A stretch of DNA of 37,392 bases from Acidocella aminolytica 101 = DSM 11237. Its GTDB lineage: Bacteria > Pseudomonadota > Alphaproteobacteria > Acetobacterales > Acetobacteraceae. Where the stretch lies: positions 1-37,392 of the forward strand of contig NZ_FQVJ01000037.1 of NCBI RefSeq assembly GCF_900129125.1, read 5' to 3'. Position numbers and translations under genes: made by a program. The stretch's first letter is position 1; every line of letters starts with the position of its first letter. Shown here in pieces: positions 1 to 11,946 of the stretch. Under the pieces are notes generated by a model. That model made no database searches, had not been told where the DNA came from, and saw only the letters and a list, made by a program, of their open reading frames with translations.

Positions 1-321
1 CTCATCATGGCTCAGCGGGGCAAAGACTGGATCGCCCCCATGCTGTTCGACACAAGCTGCACCCACCTGACCGTGACCGCATGGATCAAGGAAATGTTGC
101 TGCCGGCACTCAGGCCGGAAAGCTTGGTGATCATGGATAATGCGCCTTTCCACAACAAGCCCAAAATAGCCGAAATTCTCGACCAACACGGGCACAAGCT
201 ATTGCCGTTGCCCAGATACTCACCAGACTTCAATCCAATCGAGCAGGCTTTCGCGATCCTCAAACGGCAACGGAGCTTCTCAGGAAAATCCCTCGATGAA
301 TTAATAACGTCACACTCTTAA
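1..321 (+). mobile_element. IS630-family transposase, C-terminal part (starts before the window)
   Basis: The reading frame is open at base 1, so this is the 3' part of a longer gene. It carries the end of the DDE integrase-like catalytic domain: VIMDNAPFHN contains the second catalytic Asp and LPRYSPDFNPIEQAF contains the catalytic Glu, both characteristic of IS630/Tc1-type transposases, which insert at TA. The stop is TAA at 319-321. About 15 bases further on, at roughly 332-335 (CTATAATT), the sequence changes abruptly into the reading frame of a LysE-type exporter, which places the right end of the element there. Family assignment is secure; the exact terminal repeat cannot be set because the left end lies outside the window. 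The open frame suggests an element still intact at its 3' end. Confidence 0.85.
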
Positions 322-574: not shown

Positions 575-1423
575 ATGAGTAAAACGAATCATCCTGTTTG
601 GCTGATTACCGGATGTTCCACGGGGTTTGGCAGGGAATTGGCCCTGCGGATCGTGCAACGCGGCTGGAAGCTGGTGGTGACGGCGCGTAATTTGGAGCAG
701 GTCAGCGAAATTGCTGAAATGGACAAGGAAAATGTGCTGGCCTTGACGCTGGATGTGACCAAGCCTGCGCAGATTGATGCGGCGGTGAAGGCGGCGATGG
801 AAAAATTCGGGCGGATTGACGTGCTCGTGAATAATGCGGGCTATGGCTATCAAAGTTCGATCGAGGAAGGCGATGAAGCCGAGATCCGCGCGCAATTCGA
901 TACGAATGTGTTTGGATTATTCGCGCTGACGCGGGCGGTGCTTCCGGTGATGCGGGCGCAGAAGAGCGGGCATATTCTAAATATTACTTCTATGGCCGGG
1001 CTGATCGGCTTTCCAGGGTCGGGCTATTATGCCGCGTCGAAACATGCGGTGGAGGGGTGGTCTGATACGTTGCGGGCCGAGGTGGGACCGCTTGGGATTC
1101 AGGTGACTTGCGTGGAGCCTGGGCCGTTCCGGACGGATTGGGCTGGACGCTCCTTGAAACAGACGCCGAGCAAGATTGCCGATTACGCGGAAACCGTCGG
1201 GGCGCGGCTGGCGGGCACCAAGGCGCGCAGCGGAAACCAAGCGGGGGACCCTGTGCGGGCCAGCGATATTATGATCGAACTGACGCAGAAGCCCCAGGCG
1301 CCGCGCCATATTGTGCTGGGCGCATGGGGATTTGATGAGGTGACGCGGATGCTTCAGGTCCGACTGGAAGAGATCAGCGGCCAGAAGGACCTTTCTCTCA
1401 GCGCGGATTATCCGACGGGCTGA
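575..1423 (+). CDS. Short-chain dehydrogenase/reductase (classical SDR)
   Basis: A 282-residue NAD(P)-dependent oxidoreductase of the classical SDR fold. The cofactor motif is TGCSTGFG (residues 12-19), the NNAG motif is at 86-89, and the catalytic set is complete: Ser139 (NITSMAG), Tyr152 and Lys156 (YAASK). The ATG at 575 is preferred over an upstream start at 506 because GGAG (563-566) precedes it at good spacing and because the Rossmann strand then begins about eight residues in, as usual. The substrate is not predictable; the long C-terminal extension after the PGPFRTDW segment resembles SDRs often labelled 'oxidoreductase' near stress genes. It converges on ackA and their 3' ends overlap by 16 bp, with no terminator between them. 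Confidence 0.85.
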   Translation: MSKTNHPVWLITGCSTGFGRELALRIVQRGWKLVVTARNLEQVSEIAEMDKENVLALTLDVTKPAQIDAAVKAAMEKFGRIDVLVNNAGYGYQSSIEEGDEAEIRAQFDTNVFGLFALTRAVLPVMRAQKSGHILNITSMAGLIGFPGSGYYAASKHAVEGWSDTLRAEVGPLGIQVTCVEPGPFRTDWAGRSLKQTPSKIADYAETVGARLAGTKARSGNQAGDPVRASDIMIELTQKPQAPRHIVLGAWGFDEVTRMLQVRLEEISGQKDLSLSADYPTG

Positions 1424-2592
1424 GCGATTAAAGCGCGTGTGTGGGTAGCGATCATCAATTCTTCATCAGTGGGGATGACGCGGACCTCCACCGTGCTATC
1501 TGGTTCGCTGATGGCGGCCTCGTTGGCCTGATTGGCCTCGGAGCAGAGCTTGATGCCGAGCCAGGCGAGTTTGCTGCAGATGGCCGTGCGGATGGCGGGA
1601 GCGTGTTCGCCAATGCCAGCGGTGAAGATCAGACCGTCCAGCCCGCCTAGCGCGGTGACGAGGCCCGCCGCTTGTTTGGCGGCTTGGTAAGCGAAAAGGT
1701 CCAGGGCTTGCCGGGCGGGCTCTGAGCCGTCCTCCAGAAGGGTGCGGACATCGGCGGAGATGCCGGAGACGCCGAGCAGACCTGATTTTTTATAGAGCAG
1801 GGTGGTGAGGTCGTCGGCATTCATGCCATGGGACTGCATGAAATAGAGTAGCACCCCGGCATCTATAGTGCCGGAGCGGGTGCCCATGACCAGACCATCC
1901 AGGGCAGTGAAGCCCATTGTGGAGTCTATGGATTTTCCGTTTTTGACCGCGCACATGCTGGCGCCGTTGCCAAGATGCGCGATAATGACACGGCTTTTGG
2001 CGAGATTAGGAGCCAAGGTGGGCAGGCGGGAGGTAATGTATTCATAAGACAGGCCGTGAAAGCCGTAGCGGCGGACACCTTCATCGTGAAATGAACGCGG
2101 GATGGCGAAGCGTGTCGCGATCTCGGGCATGGTGTGGTGGAAGGATGTGTCGAAACAGCCTACTTGTTTTAAAGAGGGACGGAGTTTGAATAAAGCCTGT
2201 ACGGCGGCGCAATTATGAGGCTCATGCAAGGGGGCGAGATGGCTGAGGCGGGCAATGTCCGCGAGATGTGATTCATCCAGAAAAAGCGGTTTGGTAAAAG
2301 TGCTGCCGCCATGCACGATGCGGTGGCCGGCGGCGATGAGGCTGTCATTGCCCAGATGGGCTTCTACCCAAGCCAGAACTTCGCCCAGCAGATCCTCATG
2401 ATTCAAGGGGGCATGGTTGGGCCAGCGCTTTTCAAGCGCCACCTGATCGCCGGTTTTGATGAGCAGATGCGGTGCGGCGCCGATATTTTCAGCCATACCC
2501 TCGGCCGCGCAGACGAGGCTGCTTTGCAGCTCGAATAGCGCGAATTTGATGCTGGAGGAGCCTGCGTTGATGGTGAGGATCGCGTCAGCCAT
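1408..2592 (-). CDS. ackA: Acetate/propionate(/butyrate) kinase
   Basis: A 394-residue acetokinase-family enzyme (acyl phosphate + ADP to acid + ATP) of the ASKHA fold. Visible motifs are NAGSSSIKF near the N-terminus, GHRIVHGG, the FDTSFH signature, RRYGFHGLSYEYI, HLGNGASMCAVKNGKSIDST, MGTRSGTIDAG and FTAGIGEHAP, all in family order. An ATG at 2592 is chosen; a GTG two codons upstream (2598) is the alternative. It overlaps the end of the MaoC-phosphotransacylase gene by 8 bp, so the two are probably translationally coupled, as expected for enzymes that pass acyl phosphate. It is the last gene of the phaC operon. Acetate, propionate and butyrate kinases share these motifs, so the acyl chain used is open; the PHB context makes C4 plausible. 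Confidence 0.93.
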   Translation of the reverse strand: MADAILTINAGSSSIKFALFELQSSLVCAAEGMAENIGAAPHLLIKTGDQVALEKRWPNHAPLNHEDLLGEVLAWVEAHLGNDSLIAAGHRIVHGGSTFTKPLFLDESHLADIARLSHLAPLHEPHNCAAVQALFKLRPSLKQVGCFDTSFHHTMPEIATRFAIPRSFHDEGVRRYGFHGLSYEYITSRLPTLAPNLAKSRVIIAHLGNGASMCAVKNGKSIDSTMGFTALDGLVMGTRSGTIDAGVLLYFMQSHGMNADDLTTLLYKKSGLLGVSGISADVRTLLEDGSEPARQALDLFAYQAAKQAAGLVTALGGLDGLIFTAGIGEHAPAIRTAICSKLAWLGIKLCSEANQANEAAISEPDSTVEVRVIPTDEELMIATHTRALIAQPVG

Positions 2593-3976
2593 GGGCACCG
2601 GCCATCATCACGGCAATGGCGCAGGAGGCGAGGCGGGCGCGGTCGTTATCCGCGCGGCTGGTGAGGATGATGGGCACCGAGGCGCCGAGCACGATGCCTG
2701 CCGCGTCCGCATTAGCCAGAAAAGTAAGCTGCTTGGCTAGCATATTACCGGATTCAATGTCCGGCACGACCAGAATGTCCGCCTGACCGGCGACGGGGGA
2801 AATGATGTGTTTTTGCGCGGCGGCGGTAGCGCTGATGGCGTTGTCGAAGGCCAGGGGGCCGTCGAGAATGGCGCTGTTGATCTGGCCACGATCCGCCATT
2901 TTGCACAGGGCGGCGGCGTCCAGCGTGGCCTGCATGGCGGGGTTCACGGTTTCCACCGCGGCGAGGATAGCCACACGCGGTGTTTCAATGCCCAGAGAGT
3001 GGGCGAGGCTGATGGCGTTGAGGACGATGCTGTGTTTATCTTCAAGATCCGGCTGGATGTTGATGGCGGCATCGGTAATCAGAAGCGGTTTGGGGTAGGA
3101 TGGCACATCCATGACATAAACATGGCTGAGCCGATTGCCGGTGCGCAGGCCGGTACCGGGCTGGACGACTTCGTGCAGCAACTCATCAGTGTGCAGAGCG
3201 CCTTTCATCAGTGCTTTGGCGATGCCTTCATGAGCCAGGGCGACGGCGCGTTTGGCGGCGGCCGAGCTGGAGGCGGCTTCCTCTATACGGAAGGCGGAAA
3301 TGTCCAGCTTATATTCGGCAGCCTTGGCGGTGATAAGGGATGTGGGGCCCACCAGGATGGGTGTGATGAGGCCGCGCGCGGCGGCCTCTGTCACGGCGAG
3401 GAGGGAGGTTTCGTCACACGGATAGGCGATGGCGGTGGGCAGAGGCGTGTCTGACGTGGCCTTGGTGAGCAGGTTACGCAGGAATTCATGCCGCAGCAGA
3501 CGGACTTCCGGCAGGGCGATGGCGGGGCGGCTGATTTTCTCGGTTGGGGCCTGCACGGTGGCGGTACCGCTCAGCACGTCCTTGCCGTCTTGATTGAAGC
3601 AATGACAGTCTAGAATGACGCGGTGTTTTTCGGGGATCAACTCGGTGACGATGACTTTTGCGGTGATGGTGTCACCGGGGCTGACAGGGGCGTGGAATCT
3701 CAGCTCCTGCCCGAGATAGATGGTACCGGGGCCGGGGAGTTTGGTGCCCAGCACGGCGGAGATTAGCCCGGCGGTGAGTACGCCCTGCGCGATGATGTGA
3801 TGGAAAAGATCTGACGCGGCATAGTCTTTATCCAAATGAGCGGGGTTTACGTCGCCGGAAATATAGGAAAATAGCGCGATGTCATCGCTGCTTATGGTTT
3901 TGGAAAGGCTTGCGGAATCGCCCAGGGCGATTTCAGCGAAAATGCGATTCTCCAGGATTTCGGTATTGATGTCCAT
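2585..3976 (-). CDS. Bifunctional MaoC-type (R)-enoyl-CoA hydratase / phosphate acyltransferase
   Basis: A 463-residue two-domain fusion. Residues about 10-150 form a MaoC hot-dog hydratase with the R-specific hydratase signature SGDVNPAHLDKDYA: catalytic Asp42 and His47 are present. Residues about 165-463 form a phosphate acetyl/butyryltransferase domain, with LVGP, ALMKGALHTDELL and VYVMDVPSYPKPLLITDAA typical of the PTA/PTB family, ending in GASVPIILTSRAD. The hydratase interconverts 3-hydroxyacyl-CoA and enoyl-CoA; the transferase makes acyl phosphate from acyl-CoA for the kinase encoded next. The gene follows phaC by 12 bp and overlaps ackA. This fusion architecture is known in alphaproteobacteria; whether acetyl-, butyryl- or crotonyl-CoA is the real substrate is not established here. 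Confidence 0.9.
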   Translation of the reverse strand: MDINTEILENRIFAEIALGDSASLSKTISSDDIALFSYISGDVNPAHLDKDYAASDLFHHIIAQGVLTAGLISAVLGTKLPGPGTIYLGQELRFHAPVSPGDTITAKVIVTELIPEKHRVILDCHCFNQDGKDVLSGTATVQAPTEKISRPAIALPEVRLLRHEFLRNLLTKATSDTPLPTAIAYPCDETSLLAVTEAAARGLITPILVGPTSLITAKAAEYKLDISAFRIEEAASSSAAAKRAVALAHEGIAKALMKGALHTDELLHEVVQPGTGLRTGNRLSHVYVMDVPSYPKPLLITDAAINIQPDLEDKHSIVLNAISLAHSLGIETPRVAILAAVETVNPAMQATLDAAALCKMADRGQINSAILDGPLAFDNAISATAAAQKHIISPVAGQADILVVPDIESGNMLAKQLTFLANADAAGIVLGASVPIILTSRADNDRARLASCAIAVMMAGAHG

Positions 3977-3988
3977 GGCTCGGTTCCT

Positions 3989-5701
3989 TCAGCGCTGGAA
4001 GATATAGGTGCCGGGCGCGTGGCCAAGAGGCTTGTAGCCCGCTTTGGGAGCACCGGTTTGCGGCGGGTTAATGGGTGTACCGGAATGGTTAGCAAGCCAG
4101 GCCGCCCAGTCCGGCCACCAGGAGCCTTCCTCGCAATTTGCCTGGGATTGCCATTCATCCGGGGGGATGGAGAGGTCGCCGGGTTTGTGCTCCAGCTTGC
4201 GGAAATGGCGGTGGGGGTGGCCCGGCTCACTGACCACGCCCGCATTATGCCCCCCGGACGTGAGGACGAAGGTGATGTCTCCGCTATTGAGCTGCTGGAG
4301 CTTATAGACCGAGCGCCATGGGGCGATGTGGTCGGTTTCCGTGCCGATGACGAACAAGGGGACATGGATGTCAGCCAGGGAGATTTTGCGTCCGTCTGAC
4401 TCGAACCGGCCTTCCGCGAGGTCGTTATTGAGGAAGAGCTTGCGCAGATATTCCGAATGCATGCGGTAGGGCATGCGGGTGGCGTCCATGTTCCAGGACA
4501 TCAGGTCGTTCGGGTGGTCTTCCTCACCCAGATAATAGCGGCGGATCATTTGCGACCAGACGAGGTCGTTGGCGCGGAGCATCTGGAAGGCACCTGCCAT
4601 TTGCTGGGCGTCGAGATAGCCTTGAGACCACATGGCGTCGTCGAGGAAGTGGAGTTGCGCATCTGTGATGAACAGCTGCAATTCACCAGCCTCGGTAAAA
4701 TCCGTCTGGGCGGCGAGCAGAGTGACGGTGGCGAGGCGCTCATCATGATCTCGCGCCATGGTGGCGGCAGTGATGGAAAGTAGCGTGCCGCCGAGGCAAT
4801 AGCCGGTGGCGTGGATTTTTTTATCCGCGCCACAGATGGCGGTGATGGCATCCAGTGCTGCCATGGTGCCGAGGCGGCGGTAATCATCTAGTGAGACATC
4901 GCGCATGGAGGCGTCCGGGTTACGCCAGGAAATGCAGAAAACCGTGAAGCCTTGGCTGACCAGATAGTTCACCATCGAATTGTGCGGTGAAAGATCTAGG
5001 ATGTAATATTTCATGATCCAGGCGGGCACGATGAGAATAGGCTCGGGCCGGACGGACTCCGTGGCGGGAGCGTATTGGATGAGCTCCAGCAGGTCGTTAC
5101 GGAACACCACCTGGCCGGGTGTGATGGCGACATCCTTGCCCGGCTTCATAGGCAAAGGCTGGGTCTTGGTGTTACTGGCGCTGCGCAGATCCGCGACGAG
5201 ATTGCGCACACCTTGGCGCAGGCTTTCACCCGAGGTGGCTTGGGCCTTGGCAAGAACCTCGGGGTTGCAGCCGGGGAAGTTGGAGGGGGCGACGACATCC
5301 AGCATCTGGCGGGCGGTGAAATTCACGATCCGTTCATTCTTGCCGGAGACGCCTGCAGTGTCTTTGGTGGCAGTGTCCCAGAAGCGTTCCGCCCGCAGGA
5401 ATGCCTGCACAGCAAAAGCGGCGGGGCCTTGCTGCCAGCCGGGGTCTTTGAAGCGATGGTCCTGAGGTTCTGGGTTTAACGGCTTAAAGGGAAACCCCAG
5501 GGCCTGACGGGATAGTTCTGTCCAGTCCTGGGCGGCCTGGCGGGCGAGTTTCATTTGCTGGCCTGGCTGGTCGGCGATATGTAACGCCCAATCTGTCCAG
5601 GCGATGGCTAGGGCCGCCATGGAAAGCCCGCCCGTCAGCCGGGCCTGGGCAGCGTGCAACGCGCGGTCCAAAGTGTTGCACTGCTCTGTCTGGTCTGACA
5701 T
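3989..5701 (-). CDS. phaC: Class I poly(3-hydroxyalkanoate) synthase
   Basis: A 570-residue PHA synthase that polymerises (R)-3-hydroxyacyl-CoA on granule surfaces. The nucleophile box is GYCLGG, with the catalytic Cys near residue 302 replacing the Ser of lipases. The Asp (GTETDHIAPW) and His (TSGGHNAG) of the triad follow, and SWRNPD is the expected conserved segment. Length and layout fit class I, with an N-terminal helical region of about 200 residues before the alpha/beta-hydrolase core. AGAGGG precedes the ATG at 5701. It sits 37 bp after fabI and 12 bp before the MaoC-Pta gene in one minus-strand unit. No phaA or phaB occurs in the window, so this may be an additional synthase dedicated to this operon rather than the main storage enzyme. 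Confidence 0.93.
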   Translation of the reverse strand: MSDQTEQCNTLDRALHAAQARLTGGLSMAALAIAWTDWALHIADQPGQQMKLARQAAQDWTELSRQALGFPFKPLNPEPQDHRFKDPGWQQGPAAFAVQAFLRAERFWDTATKDTAGVSGKNERIVNFTARQMLDVVAPSNFPGCNPEVLAKAQATSGESLRQGVRNLVADLRSASNTKTQPLPMKPGKDVAITPGQVVFRNDLLELIQYAPATESVRPEPILIVPAWIMKYYILDLSPHNSMVNYLVSQGFTVFCISWRNPDASMRDVSLDDYRRLGTMAALDAITAICGADKKIHATGYCLGGTLLSITAATMARDHDERLATVTLLAAQTDFTEAGELQLFITDAQLHFLDDAMWSQGYLDAQQMAGAFQMLRANDLVWSQMIRRYYLGEEDHPNDLMSWNMDATRMPYRMHSEYLRKLFLNNDLAEGRFESDGRKISLADIHVPLFVIGTETDHIAPWRSVYKLQQLNSGDITFVLTSGGHNAGVVSEPGHPHRHFRKLEHKPGDLSIPPDEWQSQANCEEGSWWPDWAAWLANHSGTPINPPQTGAPKAGYKPLGHAPGTYIFQR

Positions 5702-5738
5702 TCAGAACCCTCTTGTGATCTTTGGTTTGGATGGCGGG

Positions 5739-6524
5739 CTATGCGCCCAGCAAATGTTCACCGCCATCAATCGGGATGATGGTGCCGGTGAGCATACGCG
5801 CGGCGTCACTGACAAGAAAGGCGGCCAAATCACCGCAGTCTTCAATCTTTACCAACTCTTTTTCCGGTGCTTCGCGCGCGGCCGTATCCAGAAGATCTGA
5901 AAAATGCTCGATCCCGCTGGCGGCCCGGGTAGCAATGGGGCCGGGAGAGATGGCGTTGACCCGGATTTTTTTTGGTCCCAGCTCAACGGCGGTGTAACGC
6001 ACGCAGCTTTCCAGCGCCGCTTTCACGGGACCCATGATGCCGTAATGCGGAATGACACGCTCAGAGCCGATATAGGTCATGGCAAGCAAAGTACCGCCCG
6101 CCACCATTAAAGGTTCCGCGAGCTTCGCTGTGCGCAGGAAGGAATGGCAAGAAACATCCATGGCGGTGGCGAAGCCTTGGGCGGAGCAATCCACCACCCG
6201 GCTGTGCAGATCCGCCGCCGGGGCAAAGGCGATGGAGTGCAGGACGAAATCCAGCTTACCCCAGCGTTGGGTTATGGCCTCAAAAACAGCTTCAAGCTGG
6301 CCTTCGGCCTGAACGTCACAGGGCATTAAAATGTCACAGGGCAAGGCGTCCGTGATGGTGGTGACAAACGGCCGCGCTTTCTCGTTAAGATAGGTCGCGG
6401 TCAACACGGCGCCAGCCTGGGCGAAAGCCCTAGCACAACCTGCCGCGATACTGTGTTCATTGGCAATACCGATGACAAGTCCGCGCTTGCCAGCAAGGCT
6501 TCCCGGCAAGGTGGAGATACTCAT
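5739..6524 (-). CDS. fabI: FabI-type enoyl-[ACP] reductase
   Basis: A 261-residue FabI-like divergent SDR that reduces enoyl thioesters with NAD(P)H. FabI-specific features are the glycine motif GIANEHSIAAG, HSIAFAP, and the active-site block MTYIGSERVIPHYGIMGP with Tyr151, Tyr161 and Lys168 in Y-x6-K spacing; the C-terminus has DGGEHLLG. Its start overlaps the preceding small gene by 4 bp (ATGA), indicating coupling. The location inside a phaC-phosphotransacylase-kinase operon is unusual for a housekeeping fatty-acid gene. It may be a paralogue acting on crotonyl-CoA or a related short enoyl thioester. That role is inference; a duplicate fatty-acid-synthesis FabI is the alternative. Confidence 0.88.
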   Translation of the reverse strand: MSISTLPGSLAGKRGLVIGIANEHSIAAGCARAFAQAGAVLTATYLNEKARPFVTTITDALPCDILMPCDVQAEGQLEAVFEAITQRWGKLDFVLHSIAFAPAADLHSRVVDCSAQGFATAMDVSCHSFLRTAKLAEPLMVAGGTLLAMTYIGSERVIPHYGIMGPVKAALESCVRYTAVELGPKKIRVNAISPGPIATRAASGIEHFSDLLDTAAREAPEKELVKIEDCGDLAAFLVSDAARMLTGTIIPIDGGEHLLGA

Positions 6525-6811
6525 TGGGCCGATACGTCCGGCCGGTGAGCCGCTTTGCTGGGCCGCTCGCCAACATTATTGTGATCTTGCGTATCCTTGA
6601 TGACGGGAAGGGCCCATAGCACGGCGAGCAAGGCAGCGTTGGCACGCATAACCGTTTGATTATAGGTGATCTGCGCTTGAGAAATGGTGTGCACCGTTTC
6701 CGCGAGTTGGCTGAGAACCTTGCCGGATGGAATGAATCTCTTTTGCGCCGCTTGCCAGTTTTCGAAAAAGCTATTGAAGCCAGCAAGATCCACGACTTGC
6801 TTTTCGCTCAT
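6521..6811 (-). CDS. Small phasin-like protein, first gene of the phaC operon
   Basis: A 96-residue protein of uncertain family. It has an N-terminal stretch with aromatic residues (FNSFFENWQAAQKRF), a predicted helical middle, and a hydrophobic segment at about residues 58-72 (ANAALLAVLWALP), then a charged hydrophilic tail. Phasins, the small helical proteins that coat PHB granules, have this sort of composition, and the adjacency to phaC favours that reading, but I see no diagnostic motif. The start is supported by AAGAGG nine bases upstream of the ATG at 6811. The stop overlaps the fabI start. An FNR/FixK-like box lies 62 bp upstream (6873-6886), so this gene probably leads the operon. 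Confidence 0.6.
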   Translation of the reverse strand: MSEKQVVDLAGFNSFFENWQAAQKRFIPSGKVLSQLAETVHTISQAQITYNQTVMRANAALLAVLWALPVIKDTQDHNNVGERPSKAAHRPDVSAQ

Positions 6812-6872
6812 GACACAAACCTCTTAATGATCAGCTTTCCGAGAGTTTGGCAGCGGCCGTACAAAAATGACA

Positions 6873-6886
6873 TTGACCTTCATCAA
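6873..6886 (-). promoter_or_regulatory. FNR/FixK-type box upstream of the phaC operon
   Basis: On the minus strand the sequence is TTGATGAAGGTCAA, nine of ten matches to the CRP/FNR-family consensus TTGAT-N4-ATCAA. Its centre is 68.5 bases before the start codon of the phasin-like gene. Placed at -41.5, the usual class II activator position, it would give a transcript start near 6838 and a leader of about 27 bases. No good -10 hexamer is evident at the matching position, which is common for activator-dependent promoters. Activation under low oxygen is inferred from the site. Confidence 0.6.
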
Positions 6887-7066
6887 ATACGCTGAATCTT
6901 AAACTGATCTTCATATTTTTTAGGCGTTGTTTACGCTGAATGAACGGTAAATTATTGGAAAAAAAGATGATTCTAGGGAAGAAATGAAATTAGCGTTTTT
7001 TAAACATTTCGCACGCTACTAGAAATGGGTTAATCGACTTCTTCCTTCTGTCTATAGGAAAATGCT

Positions 7067-9091
7067 GTGCAAAAAGAGCAGACGGCTGAGACTGCCCCAG
7101 CCGTGGCATGGCGTGTAATGCGCTGGATACGTGACTTGTTCGCTCTGCCGGAGGAAGATCCGGGGCTTGCATCGACACAGTTGATGGCTTTGGCGCAAAG
7201 GGTGCCAACACTTTATTGTGTCCTGATTTTTAATGTTACCGGCTTGGCCGAGACACATTACAGACATGCGCCCATTTTACTGACCGTAGTCGCACCGGTT
7301 CTGCTGGTGGTGATGGGCACGATCCGCTTGGCGGTGTGGCTTTACCGGCGTTCGCGGCTGACCCAGAATGTGGATGCGCTTATTAAACTCCGGCAAGCGC
7401 GGCGCGGGGTGGTTCTGCTGGGGGCGAGCGCGGGGGCCTGGGCGTTTTTGCTGCTGCCTTACGGCGATGAATATACGCGGTTCCAGGTGGAGATGACGGT
7501 CTCGTTGACCGTGATGACCTGTGCCTTTTGTCTGATTACGCTGCGCAGTGCCGCCATTTTACTGAGTGTTCTGGTTGGTGTGCCGTTCACACTGATATTT
7601 TTGCACATGCCCAGCCCGGCGATGCGCCTTGCAGGGGCGAGCGCGACGCTCGTGCTGTTTGTGATGGTGCAGAATTTATTGAAGAATGCGGCGGATTTTG
7701 TAGCGCTGAGTTTGTCTGAACGGGAGTTGAAAGCTCGTCAGCAGGAGACACAGCGCCTGTTGGATGAAAATTCGAGGCTGGCAAATCTTGACCCGCTGAC
7801 CAATCTACCCAACCGCCGCCGCTTTTTTTCCAGGCTGGAACATGACCTTGCCGATGCGGAAAAGAGCGGCGAGCGTTTGGCCGTGGCCCTGATGGATCTG
7901 GACCGGTTCAAAGGGGTGAATGATATTCATGGCCACGCAGCCGGAGACCGCCTCCTGATAGAGGTTGGAGACAGGCTGCGGCAGTTGGCCGAGAAAAATG
8001 TGTTTATCGCCCGACTGGGCGGGGATGAGTTTGGCGTTATTCTCACGGGCGCCAGGCTGGATGAGAGCATTGCGAAATTCTGCCAGGGAGTGAAGCAGGT
8101 TTTGGAAGGCCCATGCTTGGTAGGAGACAGGATGGCACTGATTTCATCCTCGGCCGGTGTGGCGGTTTATCCTGATGCGGCGGATACGGCAGAGATGCTT
8201 TTCGAACGGGCGGATTACGCGCTGTATCATGGCAAGCAAACCCGCAAAGGCGGTATGGTGCTATTTTCAGCCGAACATGAAACACGGATTCGGGCCGCAG
8301 CGCGGGTTGAGGAGGCGTTTCAAACGGCGGATCTTGAGGCGGAAATGTGGGTGGCGTTTCAGCCGATTGTGGATGTGAAGCGCGATCGGGTTGTGGCATT
8401 CGAGGCGTTGGCGAGATGGCAAAGCCGTGAACTAGGGCCCGTAAGCCCGGTTGTGTTTGTGCCGATTGCCGAGCGCTCGCAAATGATTGGTAAAATGACC
8501 CGCGTGCTTTTGAAAAAAGCATTGGATGCGGCGCGTCATTGGCCGAGCCATGTGAGTCTCTGTTTCAATCTTTCCGCACAGAATTTGGCTTCGCCGGATG
8601 GGATGGAGGTGATTCAGGATATGCTGCGCAATGCCGGGTTGTCGCCATGCCGGCTGGAATTTGAAGTCACGGAAACCGCTTTGTTGCATGATTTTGAACA
8701 GGCGTCAGCCTGCTTGCAGGCGTTGCGGGAGATTGGGGTGCGGATTGCCCTGGATGATTTCGGCACCGGGTTTTCCAGCTTGAGCTATGTGAACAAGCTG
8801 AAGCTGGACAAGATTAAGATTGATCGCAGCTTCGTGATTGATGTCGATGTAAGCCGGACCTCTGCGAATATTGTGAAGACGATTTTGGCGCTGTGCGAGA
8901 ATTTGAATCTAGATTGCATTGTGGAGGGGGTGGAGACGCAGGCGCAGCTGAAGGTGATTACATCTTTAGGATGTCGATTGATTCAGGGGTATTTGATTTC
9001 CAAGCCGGTGGCGGGAGACAAGATCGCTGGATTGGTGCGGCGCATTGAGCAGTTGGGGGAACGCGAAGAACAGCCTTATGGGGCGGTGTGA
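7067..9091 (+). CDS. Membrane-bound GGDEF-EAL cyclic-di-GMP protein
   Basis: A 674-residue protein. The first 200 or so residues contain about five to six hydrophobic helices without a recognisable sensor motif. A diguanylate cyclase domain (about 230-400) has an intact RLGGDEFG site near residue 317. A phosphodiesterase domain (about 420-665) has AFEALARW, FNLSAQN, EFEVTETAL, ALDDFGTGFSSL, KIDRSFV and EGVETQ, so the metal-binding and catalytic residues of active EAL enzymes all appear present. No RxxD inhibitory site precedes GGDEF. Start at GTG 7067, with AGGA at 7056-7059; an in-frame ATG at 7118 is possible. It is divergent from the phaC operon and may make or degrade c-di-GMP; the direction cannot be read from sequence. 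Confidence 0.9.
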   Translation: MQKEQTAETAPAVAWRVMRWIRDLFALPEEDPGLASTQLMALAQRVPTLYCVLIFNVTGLAETHYRHAPILLTVVAPVLLVVMGTIRLAVWLYRRSRLTQNVDALIKLRQARRGVVLLGASAGAWAFLLLPYGDEYTRFQVEMTVSLTVMTCAFCLITLRSAAILLSVLVGVPFTLIFLHMPSPAMRLAGASATLVLFVMVQNLLKNAADFVALSLSERELKARQQETQRLLDENSRLANLDPLTNLPNRRRFFSRLEHDLADAEKSGERLAVALMDLDRFKGVNDIHGHAAGDRLLIEVGDRLRQLAEKNVFIARLGGDEFGVILTGARLDESIAKFCQGVKQVLEGPCLVGDRMALISSSAGVAVYPDAADTAEMLFERADYALYHGKQTRKGGMVLFSAEHETRIRAAARVEEAFQTADLEAEMWVAFQPIVDVKRDRVVAFEALARWQSRELGPVSPVVFVPIAERSQMIGKMTRVLLKKALDAARHWPSHVSLCFNLSAQNLASPDGMEVIQDMLRNAGLSPCRLEFEVTETALLHDFEQASACLQALREIGVRIALDDFGTGFSSLSYVNKLKLDKIKIDRSFVIDVDVSRTSANIVKTILALCENLNLDCIVEGVETQAQLKVITSLGCRLIQGYLISKPVAGDKIAGLVRRIEQLGEREEQPYGAV

Positions 9092-9160: not shown

Positions 9161-9739
9161 TTATTCGGCCGGTGCAGCGTTCATGCGGGACATCGGCATA
9201 CCGATGGGCAGAACTGTATGGCCGTGGGCTTCGTTGATGATCTCAGCAGCGCCCAGATAGAAAGCCAGCACTGCGGTGATGAGGCCAGCATAGCCACCCA
9301 GCGTGCCAAGGGACGGAACGCCCAGCAGGTCTGCGAAGCCAAGCAGGGCAAACGTAACCCACAGCGCCAGGAAGATCAGGAACAGGGTGCGGTTGAGGGC
9401 GAAGGTGCCGATCCACATGGCGAAGGTGAAAACACCCCAGACCAGCAGATACCAGCCAACAGCTGCGCCGGGAACGCCCTTGGCAAAGAACTCCACGAAC
9501 AGAGCGAAGCTCCACCAGAACGCGCCGTAAGAGCAGAACGCAACAAAACCAAAGCTGTTGCCTTTGGCCATTTCCATGAGTCCCGCAAAAAATTGCGCCG
9601 TGCCGCCATAAGCAAACGCCATACCGAGCACCAGCGGCACGGTTGTGCCGGGGAGCCAGCCCGCATTGACCATGGAAAGAAGCCACGTGGTGAGAGCAAA
9701 GCCAAACAGCCCAAGCGGGGCGGGATTTGCAAGCTTCAT
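9161..9739 (-). CDS. satP: GPR1/FUN34/YaaH-family acetate carrier (SatP-like)
   Basis: A 192-residue inner-membrane protein with about six hydrophobic helices. It begins with the family signature NPAPLGLFGFALTTW, and contains FAYGGTAQFFAGLMEMAKGN and a second-half GAFWWSFALF segment, all typical of AceTr/SatP acetate-succinate uptake channels. GGAGG lies eight bases before the ATG at 9739. It is a single-gene unit with its own terminator. An acetate carrier near an acetate/butyrate kinase operon suggests handling of weak acids, but the two are not co-transcribed. The upstream gap (9740-9958) contains an imperfect inverted repeat at 9851-9894. Confidence 0.9.
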   Translation of the reverse strand: MKLANPAPLGLFGFALTTWLLSMVNAGWLPGTTVPLVLGMAFAYGGTAQFFAGLMEMAKGNSFGFVAFCSYGAFWWSFALFVEFFAKGVPGAAVGWYLLVWGVFTFAMWIGTFALNRTLFLIFLALWVTFALLGFADLLGVPSLGTLGGYAGLITAVLAFYLGAAEIINEAHGHTVLPIGMPMSRMNAAPAE

Positions 9740-9958: not shown

Positions 9959-10732
9959 TCAGATGACGGGGTTTTGCACGCCATCCATCGGCAGGATGGC
10001 GCCGTTAATATAGCTTGCCAAAGGCGAGGCCAGAAACAGTACGGTGCTGGCGATTTCCTCAGGTTTGGCGAAGCGGCCCGCCCGGATGTTGGCGACGCTG
10101 TCAGTCATCGCTTCTTCCACGGTGATACCTGCGGCTTTGGCGGTGGCGCGCATGCCTTCCTGTACGCGTCCGGTTTCCGTGAGGCCCGGATTGATGCCGT
10201 TGATACGCACGCCGGATTTTGCATAGGCGGCGGCAAGCCCGACGGTGGCCAGCATTAAAGCGGCGTTGGCCGCGCCGCCCGCAATATGTACCGGCGCAGC
10301 GACTTTGCCGCCCATGCCAATAATATTGACGATGGCGCCCTGTCCGCGTGCCACCATGCGTTTAATGGCGGGGTCGAGAATATTGATAGTGGAGAAATAT
10401 TTTGCGTCCATCGCCGCGCGCCAGGCAGCGGGGATTAAGTCTTCCGGAGGGGTGCGTTTGGCGGCGCCTGCGCTATTCACCAAAATATCCAGCGTTCCCA
10501 GCGCGGTTTCAACTTGATCAAGCAAAGCGGCTGCTTGGGCGGCGTCACATAAATCCGCCGTGAAGCCGGTAACGCCGGGAAGGTTGGTCAGGGCTGTGTC
10601 GATATTGGCTTGCGCGCGGGAGCAGATAGCCACGCGCGCGCCCGTCTCCAGAAACGCCTTGGCGCAGGCGAAGCCGATACCTTTTGAGCCGCCCGTGACC
10701 AGGACGGTTTTGCCGCTGAAATCGAACGGCAT
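9959..10732 (-). CDS. SDR-family protein lacking the Ser-Tyr-Lys catalytic residues
   Basis: A 257-residue protein with a complete NAD(P)-binding half: TGGSKGIG (13-20), an LVNSAG equivalent of NNAG, and a normal SDR C-terminal half. The active-site block reads VNIIGMGGKVAAPVHIAGG then AANAALM. Aligned to canonical SDRs, the catalytic Ser is Gly139, Tyr is Gly152 and Lys is Asn156, so classical hydride-transfer chemistry looks impossible or altered. Stop of hemA and start of this gene overlap as TGATG, implying translational coupling to ALA synthase. It may bind a nucleotide cofactor without reducing, or use different residues. The Rossmann fold is secure; the function is unknown. Confidence 0.85.
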   Translation of the reverse strand: MPFDFSGKTVLVTGGSKGIGFACAKAFLETGARVAICSRAQANIDTALTNLPGVTGFTADLCDAAQAAALLDQVETALGTLDILVNSAGAAKRTPPEDLIPAAWRAAMDAKYFSTINILDPAIKRMVARGQGAIVNIIGMGGKVAAPVHIAGGAANAALMLATVGLAAAYAKSGVRINGINPGLTETGRVQEGMRATAKAAGITVEEAMTDSVANIRAGRFAKPEEIASTVLFLASPLASYINGAILPMDGVQNPVI

Positions 10733-11946
10733 CAGGCGGTTTGCGTTTCGGCCGGCAGCAGGATCTGCTGGAGGGCTGTGACAAGATTGTTCATCATCTC
10801 GTCCGTATGTTTGGGACCGGGGGTGAAGCGCAGACGCTCCGTGCCGCGCGGTACGGTGGGATAATTGATGGGCGTTGCATACATGCCGAATTCGCGGATC
10901 AGGCGCATGGAGATTTCCGTGGCTTTCGCGGCGTCACCGATCATTAGCGGGACGATGTGGCTGTTGCTGTCCATGACCGGCAGACCGGCGGCGAGGAATT
11001 TGGCTTTCAGCGTTGCCGCGCGTTCAAACAGTTTGGTGCGGCGGGTGCTATCCTGTTTCAGTAGACGAATGGAGGTTAGCGCCGCCGCGACGGTGGGCGG
11101 GGGCAGTGCGGTGGTGAAAATGAACCCGGCGGCGACGGAACGTATATAGTCCAGTACCTTGAAGTCGCCGGTGATATAGCCGCCATGGCAGCCAAAGCCT
11201 TTGGCCAACGTGCCTTCAATGATGGTGATGCGGTCCGCCACGCCATCGCGCTCTGACACGCCGCCCCCATGGGGACCGTACATGCCGACAGCATGAACCT
11301 CGTCCAGATAGGTCATGGCGTTGTAGCGGTCCGCGAGGTCGCAGATTTGTTCCAGGGGAGCGATATCGCCGTCCATGGAATAGACGCTCTCGAACACGAT
11401 GAGCTTTGGCGCCTCGGCGGGGGCTTCGGCGAGCAGGCGCTCAAGGTCCGCCATGTCGTTATGTTTGAAGATATGCACCGTGGCGGTTTTGCCGCCTTTG
11501 ATGCCGACGATCATGGAATTATGGTTCTGCGCGTCCGAGAACACATGCCAGTCGGGCAGGGAGTTCAGAATGGCCGTGAGGGTGGCTTGGTTGGAGACAT
11601 AGCCGGAGGTGAAAAGCAGCGCGGCGTCTTTGCCGTGCAGGTCGGCCAGCTCTTCCTCCAGCGCCACATGCAGCGGTGATGAGCCTGCGATGTTCCGCGT
11701 GCCGCCCGCGCCCGCGCCGTAGCGGCGGGCGGCATCGGCGGAGGCTTCGATCACCTGCGGGTCTGTGCCCATAGCTAGATAATCGTTGGTAGACCAGACG
11801 AGAATGTCCCGCGTTCTGCCTTCCATGGTGACGGAGTAATAGGGGAAGCGGTCGGTTAGCTTCTCCAGCGCCACGAACCGGCGATAACGACCCTGAGATG
11901 AGATTTCCGTCAGGGCTTCATCGCATTTGGTAAGAAATTGATGCAT
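10732..11946 (-). CDS. hemA: 5-aminolevulinate synthase (Shemin pathway)
   Basis: A 404-residue PLP enzyme that condenses glycine and succinyl-CoA to 5-aminolevulinate, the first step of haem synthesis in alphaproteobacteria. Family hallmarks are [58 protein letters not shown] and the PLP-lysine segment [13 protein letters not shown] (Lys near 248), with [10 protein letters not shown] near the C-terminus. Start ATG at 11946, with AGG just upstream. It is coupled to the catalytic-residue-less SDR by a TGATG junction. The region 11947-12055 contains a palindrome, a hairpin and a degenerate FNR-like site. A 2-amino-3-ketobutyrate ligase is excluded by the ALAS-type C-terminus and motifs. Confidence 0.95.

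Follow-up and report, generated by a model that had tools for sequence, protein, structure and literature searches.

A five-gene operon around an accessory polyhydroxyalkanoate synthase in Acidocella aminolytica: gene families, a conserved FNR/FixK-type box and a possible polymer-linked route to a short-chain acid

Organization of the operon and its gene families

We analyzed a 37,392-nucleotide stretch of DNA from Acidocella aminolytica 101 = DSM 11237 (contig NZ_FQVJ01000037.1, positions 1 to 37,392; "the window" denotes this whole stretch), which holds an operon combining a FabI-type reductase, PhaC, a MaoC-phosphotransacylase fusion and an acyl kinase. Five minus-strand open reading frames (ORFs) run from position 6811 down to 1408 in the order small gene, fabI, phaC, fusion gene and kinase gene. 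A first-pass annotation, made from the DNA letters, had described a head-to-tail operon at 1408..6811, and the coordinates confirm it: the successive junctions are a 4-bp overlap, a 37-bp gap, a 12-bp gap and a 14-bp overlap. The features are:

6521..6811, minus strand: small conserved protein, 96 aa; first gene of the operon
5739..6524, minus strand: FabI-type reductase, 261 aa, of the PRK07533/NF005717 clade, with catalytic Tyr and Lys kept
3989..5701, minus strand: PhaC, accessory class I-like polyhydroxyalkanoate (PHA) synthase, 570 aa, with lipase box GYCLGG and GGHNAG
2585..3976, minus strand: MaoC-phosphotransacylase fusion, 463 aa, with an N-terminal (R)-enoyl-CoA (coenzyme A) hydratase and a C-terminal PTA_PTB domain
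1408..2598, minus strand: acetate/propionate-type acyl kinase, 396 aa, GTG start; V95 kept, with L183 and A232 where canonical kinases have Thr and Pro
6873..6886, no strand assigned: palindromic box of the FNR/FixK type (minus-strand sequence TTGATGAAGGTCAA), whose end lies 61 bp ahead of the first gene

Region 6812-7066 separates the first gene from a divergent 674-aa plus-strand gene (7067-9091). At the other end, the 3' end of the kinase gene overlaps a convergent plus-strand SDR gene (506-1423).

Profile scores bear out the labels given to FabI (NF005717, 413.2 bits, cut-off 337), PhaC (PF07167 match; 530.2 bits against the class I model TIGR01838, below its cut-off of 622.65), the fusion protein (MaoC plus PTA_PTB; NF006045, 705.6 bits, cut-off 282) and the kinase as a member of the acetate kinase family (TIGR00016, 381.8 bits, cut-off 293.4). 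The window PhaC carries the motifs of the lipase-box Cys and of the catalytic Asp and His. The Cys box and GGHNAG are present in all 58 PhaC proteins counted (58 of 60, the rest being too short or having a stop in the matched stretch), and 29 fit the narrow Asp pattern. The label that did not hold is that of the first gene, which had been called phasin-like: its product has no match among the Pfam models (E up to 10) or the NCBIfam models (E up to 1), and Phasin_2 matches one of 12 family members (the protein and 11 homologues), at E 0.013. Profile comparison with two phasin-type proteins of the host gave probabilities of 0.6% and 0.1%, a weak test in which each partner is a single sequence and one of the two lies itself just under Pfam's phasin cut-off. 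With no profile match and no similarity to the host phasin-type proteins, a phasin identity is not accepted for now; the 96-aa protein represents a conserved small family.

The gene-neighbourhood survey that the first-pass annotation had called for was run on 111 loci, made up of 80 loci of a wider set (relatives of the fusion gene), 28 further relatives, 2 plasmids and the window. Three records occur twice (L009/L140, L010/L165 and L011/L145) and many loci are close relatives; the counts are not independent. Gene starts, here and in the analysis of the box, were estimated from alignment, and short contigs and a 900-bp chaining limit may hide partners. The most frequent gene orders were fusion-kinase (41 loci), phaC-fusion-kinase-fabI (20), phaC-fusion-kinase (14) and the window order, small gene-fabI-phaC-fusion-kinase (9). 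These counts make fusion plus kinase the core of the set, often joined by phaC and fabI, with the window order as one of its variants. Recurrence in several orders across Alpha-, Beta- and Gammaproteobacteria places the gene set beyond chance.

The named records most closely related to the fusion gene come from a proteobacterial metagenome bin (86%) and from Acidocella (74-78%). Full-length copies occur in 24 of 36 same-genus genomes, with a fragment in 3 more. Across 398 Pseudomonadota genomes, searched for the best few candidates per genome under strict E-value limits that make absences soft, the transferase family was found in 70 at the limit used and the full-length fusion in 32. In what we judge to be the same 398 genomes, PRK07533-type FabI was found in 38, of which 32 also have the transferase, against 70 of 398 overall (Fisher 8e-22, relatedness ignored); in 24 genomes the two lie within 7 kb. 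The FabI cut of 355 bits or more was chosen at a gap, and at the curated 337 bits the figure is 33 of 42 genomes. This type of FabI thus tracks the transferase.

A conserved FNR/FixK-type box and a probable low-oxygen regulon

The motif TTGAY-N4-RTCAA was searched in the 300 bp upstream of each locus, with the expectation taken from motif density elsewhere in the same loci; 75 of the 80 wider-set and 24 of the 25 genus-set loci were usable, the rest having too little upstream sequence. Of the 20 loci whose first gene is the small gene of the window operon, 18 have the box (0.02 expected; 17 of 19 once a doubled record is removed), 41-79 bp before the estimated start. It is also found upstream in 17 of 24 same-genus loci, the window included (0.14 expected), and in 12 of the 75 usable wider-set loci (0.57 expected). 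The loci are not independent, and close relatives inflate these counts. As controls, 11 permuted half-sites gave 0 matches, and among 64 AT-rich half-sites the next best matched a single locus. Comparison across the genus shows the box retained and much of the sequence around it changed. Within the wider set, the box stands before 10 of 35 phaC-first loci versus 1 of 38 fusion-first loci.

The 3.96-Mb host genome contains 31 boxes, compared with 2 matches to the pattern read backwards. By mechanical ORF calls, the 30 boxes outside the window fall between ORFs with a start within 450 bp (20), inside an ORF (7) or in neither position (3). They precede narG (62 bp), cytochrome bd oxidase subunit I (76 bp), a zinc alcohol dehydrogenase (66 bp), CBS-domain proteins (56 and 60 bp), two P-type ATPases and cytochrome b561. 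Others stand before an amino acid permease, an OmpA-type protein, a porin and further genes with no evident tie to oxygen, and 6 of 28 proteins behind host boxes matched no family in the family scan. The host has four PhaC genes. The loci of the three accessory ones, including that of the window, all carry boxes, against an expectation of about 0.01 boxes in four 300-bp stretches. On contig C38 the box lies 55 bp before phaC. On contig C68 boxes flank phaC, 77 bp before the preceding phosphoribosyltransferase gene and 54 bp before the following SDR gene. No box was found on contig C84, home of the best-scoring phaC. The host also encodes an FNR-like regulator with an N-terminal Cys cluster, which we take to be the mark of an oxygen sensor.

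The operon thus appears to have what we would expect of a member of an FNR/FixK regulon, namely a conserved upstream box and a candidate regulator in the same genome. The low-oxygen role suggested in the first-pass annotation is in this respect supported, and the box evidence favours a predicted role of the operon at low oxygen.

Similar control of accessory phaC genes has been reported; here and below, articles are cited by their PubMed Central identifiers. In Bradyrhizobium diazoefficiens, FixK2 targets phaC2 (bll6073), which has a box and whose expression rises in microoxia (PMC9104804, PMC6515984), and PhaC1 is the sole synthase needed for polymer, phaC2 being supposed inactive (PMC10888616). 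Both there and in the window an accessory phaC stands behind an FNR/FixK box, whereas the account of B. diazoefficiens, as far as its available text goes, names phaC2 alone. In Herbaspirillum seropedicae, transcripts of phaC2 and phaC3 fall 100- and 60-fold, respectively, without Fnr (PMC5862806).

Neighbouring genes of the surveyed loci provide single examples without a control. In Azospirillum lipoferum the fusion and kinase genes lie among eno, pgk, gap and a formate/nitrite transporter gene; on a Paraburkholderia plasmid the pair stands behind cydAB, and on a Bosea plasmid near genes for universal stress proteins, an alcohol dehydrogenase and a c-type cytochrome. On pSymA of Sinorhizobium meliloti, a MaoC-less set adjoins CBS, adhP and phosphoketolase genes. 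The other plasmid loci have no neighbour genes of the kind found in these Azospirillum, Paraburkholderia, Bosea and S. meliloti loci. Nine marker proteins were also looked for in the 69 wider-set loci of at least 10 kb, with hits to a P-type ATPase (9 loci), universal stress protein (4), alcohol dehydrogenases (3 and 4), CydA (2) and CydB (1); CBS, DUF3141 and a YaaH-type protein were in none of the 69. These marker counts have no control, and a shared marker neighbourhood is therefore not used as evidence here.

Several details of these regions are recorded separately. The divergent gene at 7067-9091 resembles, by eye, a GGDEF-EAL protein, and the intergenic region with the FNR-type box is common to it and the operon. 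On contig C42 (L276, 2503-2516) the FNR-like gene and a box overlap at the gene's stop codon, and a CBS-BON gene follows 56 bp after the box. On contig C8 (L171/L270) narG, for the respiratory nitrate reductase, adjoins a Crp-type regulator gene with an FNR-type box between them. The accessory phaC locus of contig C68 (L281, 2651-7900) carries three FNR-type boxes and has the order phosphoribosyltransferase-phaC-SDR, followed by CBS and host-attachment family genes. In S. meliloti ml46 pSymA (L234, 7881-9054), the listed annotation omits the kinase gene between the transferase gene and fabI, and the match to this kinase is split into two pieces.

Substrate-related features of the reductase, fusion protein and kinase

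The operon FabIs form one clade in the tree (41 of 41, support 1.0), outside which lie Escherichia coli FabI and the housekeeping alphaproteobacterial FabIs. Catalytic Tyr156 and Lys163 are kept in 41 of 41, and Tyr146 is replaced by Phe in 24. E. coli FabI residues K201, R204 and K205 are, we assume, those that dock acyl carrier protein (ACP); the window FabI has E206, S209 and D210 at these positions and hence no basic docking patch. Net charge over the three positions is negative in 39 and zero in 2 of the 41 operon FabIs compared (of 43), +3 in E. coli and +1 in 28 of 30 housekeeping FabIs, a set that comprises the best-matching 30 of 56 genomes with a match and is hence close to the host's own. 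Most of the housekeeping FabIs aligned keep only the Arg of the basic triad, and the triad is not universal. The housekeeping set was selected by match, the host's own housekeeping FabI has G, S and Y at the three positions, and CoA is itself acidic; the acidic surface therefore argues against the usual ACP docking more than for CoA. For the first-pass interpretation, the separate clade with its altered docking surface and the linkage to the transferase count in favour, CoA itself being a presumed substrate.

The MaoC domain of the fusion protein carries GDVNPAH, presumably the (R)-hydratase signature, and the strict pattern G-D-x-N-P-x-H is found in 94 of the 108 fusion proteins counted (of 111; the others were too short or had a stop in the matched stretch). 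The proposed role as an (R)-hydratase is supported by this signature. The evidence on the transferase domain is divided. Its nearest solved structure is a phosphate butyryltransferase (227.7 bits, with 65.1 bits for the best chain named phosphate acetyltransferase), and the Ser-Arg-Ala-Asp stretch of the clostridial phosphate butyryltransferase is kept in the structure-chain alignment. It passes the phosphate acetyltransferase model NF008852 (458.8 versus a cut-off of 413) and falls below the cut-off of the phosphotransbutyrylase equivalog TIGR02706 (319.7 versus 410.5 bits). Ser283 and Glu285 are named as conserved (PMC9706017), and the operon enzyme has Asn and Arg there. The butyryl specificity that had been suggested is consequently not borne out, the scores being split between a phosphate acetyltransferase subfamily and the Ptb structure. 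A search with the fusion protein found no second phosphotransacylase in the host, except for weak matches in ORFs of 755 and 759 aa that are probably malic enzymes.

For the kinase, we took Val93, the Thr after FHG and Pro232 as the canonical AckA pocket positions. The butyrate kinase family is rejected, the score against TIGR02707 being 61.4 bits versus a cut-off of 289.1, and the enzyme is of the acetate type instead. The Val93 equivalent is kept in all of the 98 operon kinases counted (of 101, with the same exclusions as above). All 98 carry Leu or Ile instead of the Thr that follows FHG, and 94 of them have Ala at the position of Pro232, whereas the five aligned solved chains (four enzymes) and E. 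coli AckA have Thr and Pro. The pocket of the operon kinase thus seems altered, perhaps admitting a larger acid. Both kinds of kinase, one of each, occur together in a betaproteobacterial locus (L077). Salmonella AckA does not use butyrate, for which modelling blames Val93 and Ala181 (PMC3475010). Butyrate as the kinase substrate, as assumed in the first-pass annotation, is accordingly not supported: this acetate-type enzyme retains the Val to which the exclusion of butyrate from the Salmonella enzyme is attributed, though it differs at the two other pocket positions. It is the only acetate-type kinase found in the host.

Proposed pathway, competing explanations and related systems

From these findings we propose, at a probability of about 50%, that the operon is part of the host's low-oxygen regulon of FNR/FixK type and specifies a short reductive side route from polyhydroxybutyrate (PHB) metabolism to a short-chain acid and ATP. 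As oxygen falls, an FNR-type regulator would bind the box at 6873-6886 and switch the operon on. PhaC would exchange (R)-3-hydroxybutyryl-CoA with the polymer; the MaoC domain would dehydrate it to crotonyl-CoA, which the divergent FabI would reduce with NAD(P)H to butyryl-CoA, disposing of electrons. The phosphotransacylase domain would then swap CoA for phosphate, and the kinase would move the phosphate to ADP, giving the acid and ATP. Starting from polymer-derived (R)-3-hydroxybutyryl-CoA, the yield would be one NADH oxidised and one ATP per four carbons. The acid is most likely butyrate, with acetate or propionate possible. NADH reduces crotonyl-CoA in a strongly downhill reaction; a FabI that acts on CoA esters would therefore commit the route to reduction, with the acyl phosphate spent on ATP. 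The analysis itself shows the genes, their families and catalytic motifs, the conserved box, the genomic linkage and the altered FabI surface; we infer the use of CoA by FabI, the C4 specificity of transferase and kinase, the direction of flux and regulation by FNR itself. The PHB-linked fermentation route of the first-pass annotation is thereby strengthened in its low-oxygen control, the linkage of FabI to the transferase, the altered FabI surface and the (R)-hydratase signature, and weakened in butyrate as the kinase substrate; its direction is an assumption.

Several observations weigh against this proposal. Many loci are without FabI or PhaC, the 41 fusion-kinase loci among them, although short contigs may hide partners. 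The box is rare before fusion-first loci (1 of 38) and missing from most sphingomonad loci. The acidic FabI surface would face an acidic CoA, and the host's housekeeping FabI is not basic at the docking positions either. The TIGR02706 score and the Asn and Arg of the transferase do not favour butyryl-CoA. Excreted acids would be harmful to acidophiles such as Acidocella and its relatives, and acid excretion by an acidophile host is awkward for this and for any acid-producing reading. In addition, PhaC2 of B. diazoefficiens has no demonstrated role in PHB synthesis (PMC10888616).

Other points against the proposal are shared with a different explanation, low-oxygen acetate overflow beside a polymer electron sink. 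Here, transferase and kinase would turn acetyl-CoA into acetate and ATP; PhaC, MaoC and FabI would separately handle surplus reducing power, with a promoter common to both branches because slowing respiration would call for the two together. In favour are the acetate-type kinase, with the Val blamed for excluding butyrate, and the transferase score above the cut-off of a subfamily named phosphate acetyltransferase; as the only such enzymes found in the host, both may serve acetate. Phosphoketolase, whose gene lies beside the S. meliloti cluster, makes acetyl phosphate. A Clostridium ljungdahlii protein annotated as this fusion has been proposed to replace Pta, the phosphate acetyltransferase (PMC9004356), and a H. 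seropedicae phaC1 mutant excretes about twice as much acetate (PMC5862806). The FNR-box evidence fits equally. Acetate overflow does not explain why the transferase is fused to an (R)-enoyl-CoA hydratase, why a separate FabI clade goes with the transferase, or why two positions of the kinase pocket have changed, and the nearest solved transferase is the butyryl one. We regard acetate overflow as possible but rather doubtful.

In a third explanation, assimilation, kinase and transferase would convert acetate, propionate or butyrate from outside the cell into acyl-CoA that feeds polymer synthesis. This resembles how the Burkholderia and Halomonas/Cobetia clusters have been read in print (PMC8231600, PMC8686332) and could involve a nearby GPR1/FUN34/YaaH-family gene (9161-9739). 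An acidophile would profit from removing organic acids. However, NADH-type enoyl reductases are hardly reversible, which would leave butyrate without a path to 3-hydroxybutyryl-CoA by FabI; moreover, an ATP-costing uptake route is ill-matched to low-oxygen regulation, and the permease-like gene sits beyond the divergent gene. Assimilation is therefore unlikely. Least probable, and in our view hardly credible, is that FabI serves the adjustment of membrane lipids as a usual ACP-dependent isozyme, with no metabolic link to the other operon enzymes. Its NCBI model is named enoyl-ACP reductase, its catalytic residues are intact and the host's housekeeping FabI also has no basic triad; against this stand the separate clade with docking positions that are net negative in 39 of 41, and the joint occurrence with the transferase (32 of 38 genomes, within 7 kb in 24).

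The first-pass annotation had allowed that the cluster might be known and its function not settled, and published clusters agree with this. A phaC-phaJ/pta-ackA-fabI arrangement in Burkholderia is read as acetate use, with a phosphate-starvation operon of S. meliloti cited (PMC8231600), and phaC1-fabI-bi-pta-ackA in Halomonas/Cobetia as acetate and propionate use (PMC8686332). With these clusters of phaC group D1 (Burkholderia sensu lato; Halomonas/Cobetia) the operon shares the four enzyme families, the fusion gene and the linkage to phaC: it has a MaoC-transferase fusion next to ackA and phaC, and a PRK07533-type fabI. It differs in its order (small gene-fabI-phaC-fusion-kinase), the extra small first gene and the FNR-type box. 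The S. meliloti ORF-pta-ack-fabI operon likewise unites transferase, kinase and FabI, whereas its transferase has no MaoC part, a DUF3141 gene takes the place of phaC, and control is reported under PhoB (cited in PMC8231600); we assume that the pSymA locus is this operon. The clostridial Ptb-Buk butyrate pathway is alike in outline, from acyl-CoA over acyl phosphate to acid and ATP, with a related transferase, Ptb (PMC9706017). It differs in that the operon kinase is of the acetate type, the reductase is a FabI, and the hydratase is (R)-specific and fused to the transferase. In clostridia, the reductase of the butyrate pathway is an acyl-CoA dehydrogenase. Separate publications already describe the cluster and the control of accessory phaC genes by low oxygen; the joint pathway was not found in the openly licensed literature searched, and we do not claim that it is unpublished.

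More tentatively, we suggest that many polymer-storing Pseudomonadota may ferment by a polymer-linked route under FNR control. Its crotonyl-CoA reductase would be a re-purposed FabI that a reversed docking surface separates from ACP, the hydratase-transferase fusion would channel the four-carbon unit, and a re-purposed acetate kinase would make ATP from butyryl phosphate. These bacteria keep several PHA synthases; in B. diazoefficiens one suffices for polymer (PMC10888616). If extra synthases serve a low-oxygen route to acid and ATP, the storage polymer would be a fermentable buffer of electrons and energy, and the annotations of this FabI clade (enoyl-ACP reductase) and kinase group (acetate kinase) would be corrected.

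Three neighbouring loci of the window are noted in addition. The Gpr1/Fun34/YaaH (SatP-type) family gene at 9161-9739 (minus strand), a possible acetate/succinate permease, lies about 2.3 kb upstream of the operon. At 9959-11946 (minus strand) an SDR gene overlaps an aminotransferase-fold gene that resembles, by eye, 5-aminolevulinate synthase. At the window edge, an ORF at 7-321 (plus strand) resembles an IS630-type transposase fragment, also by eye.

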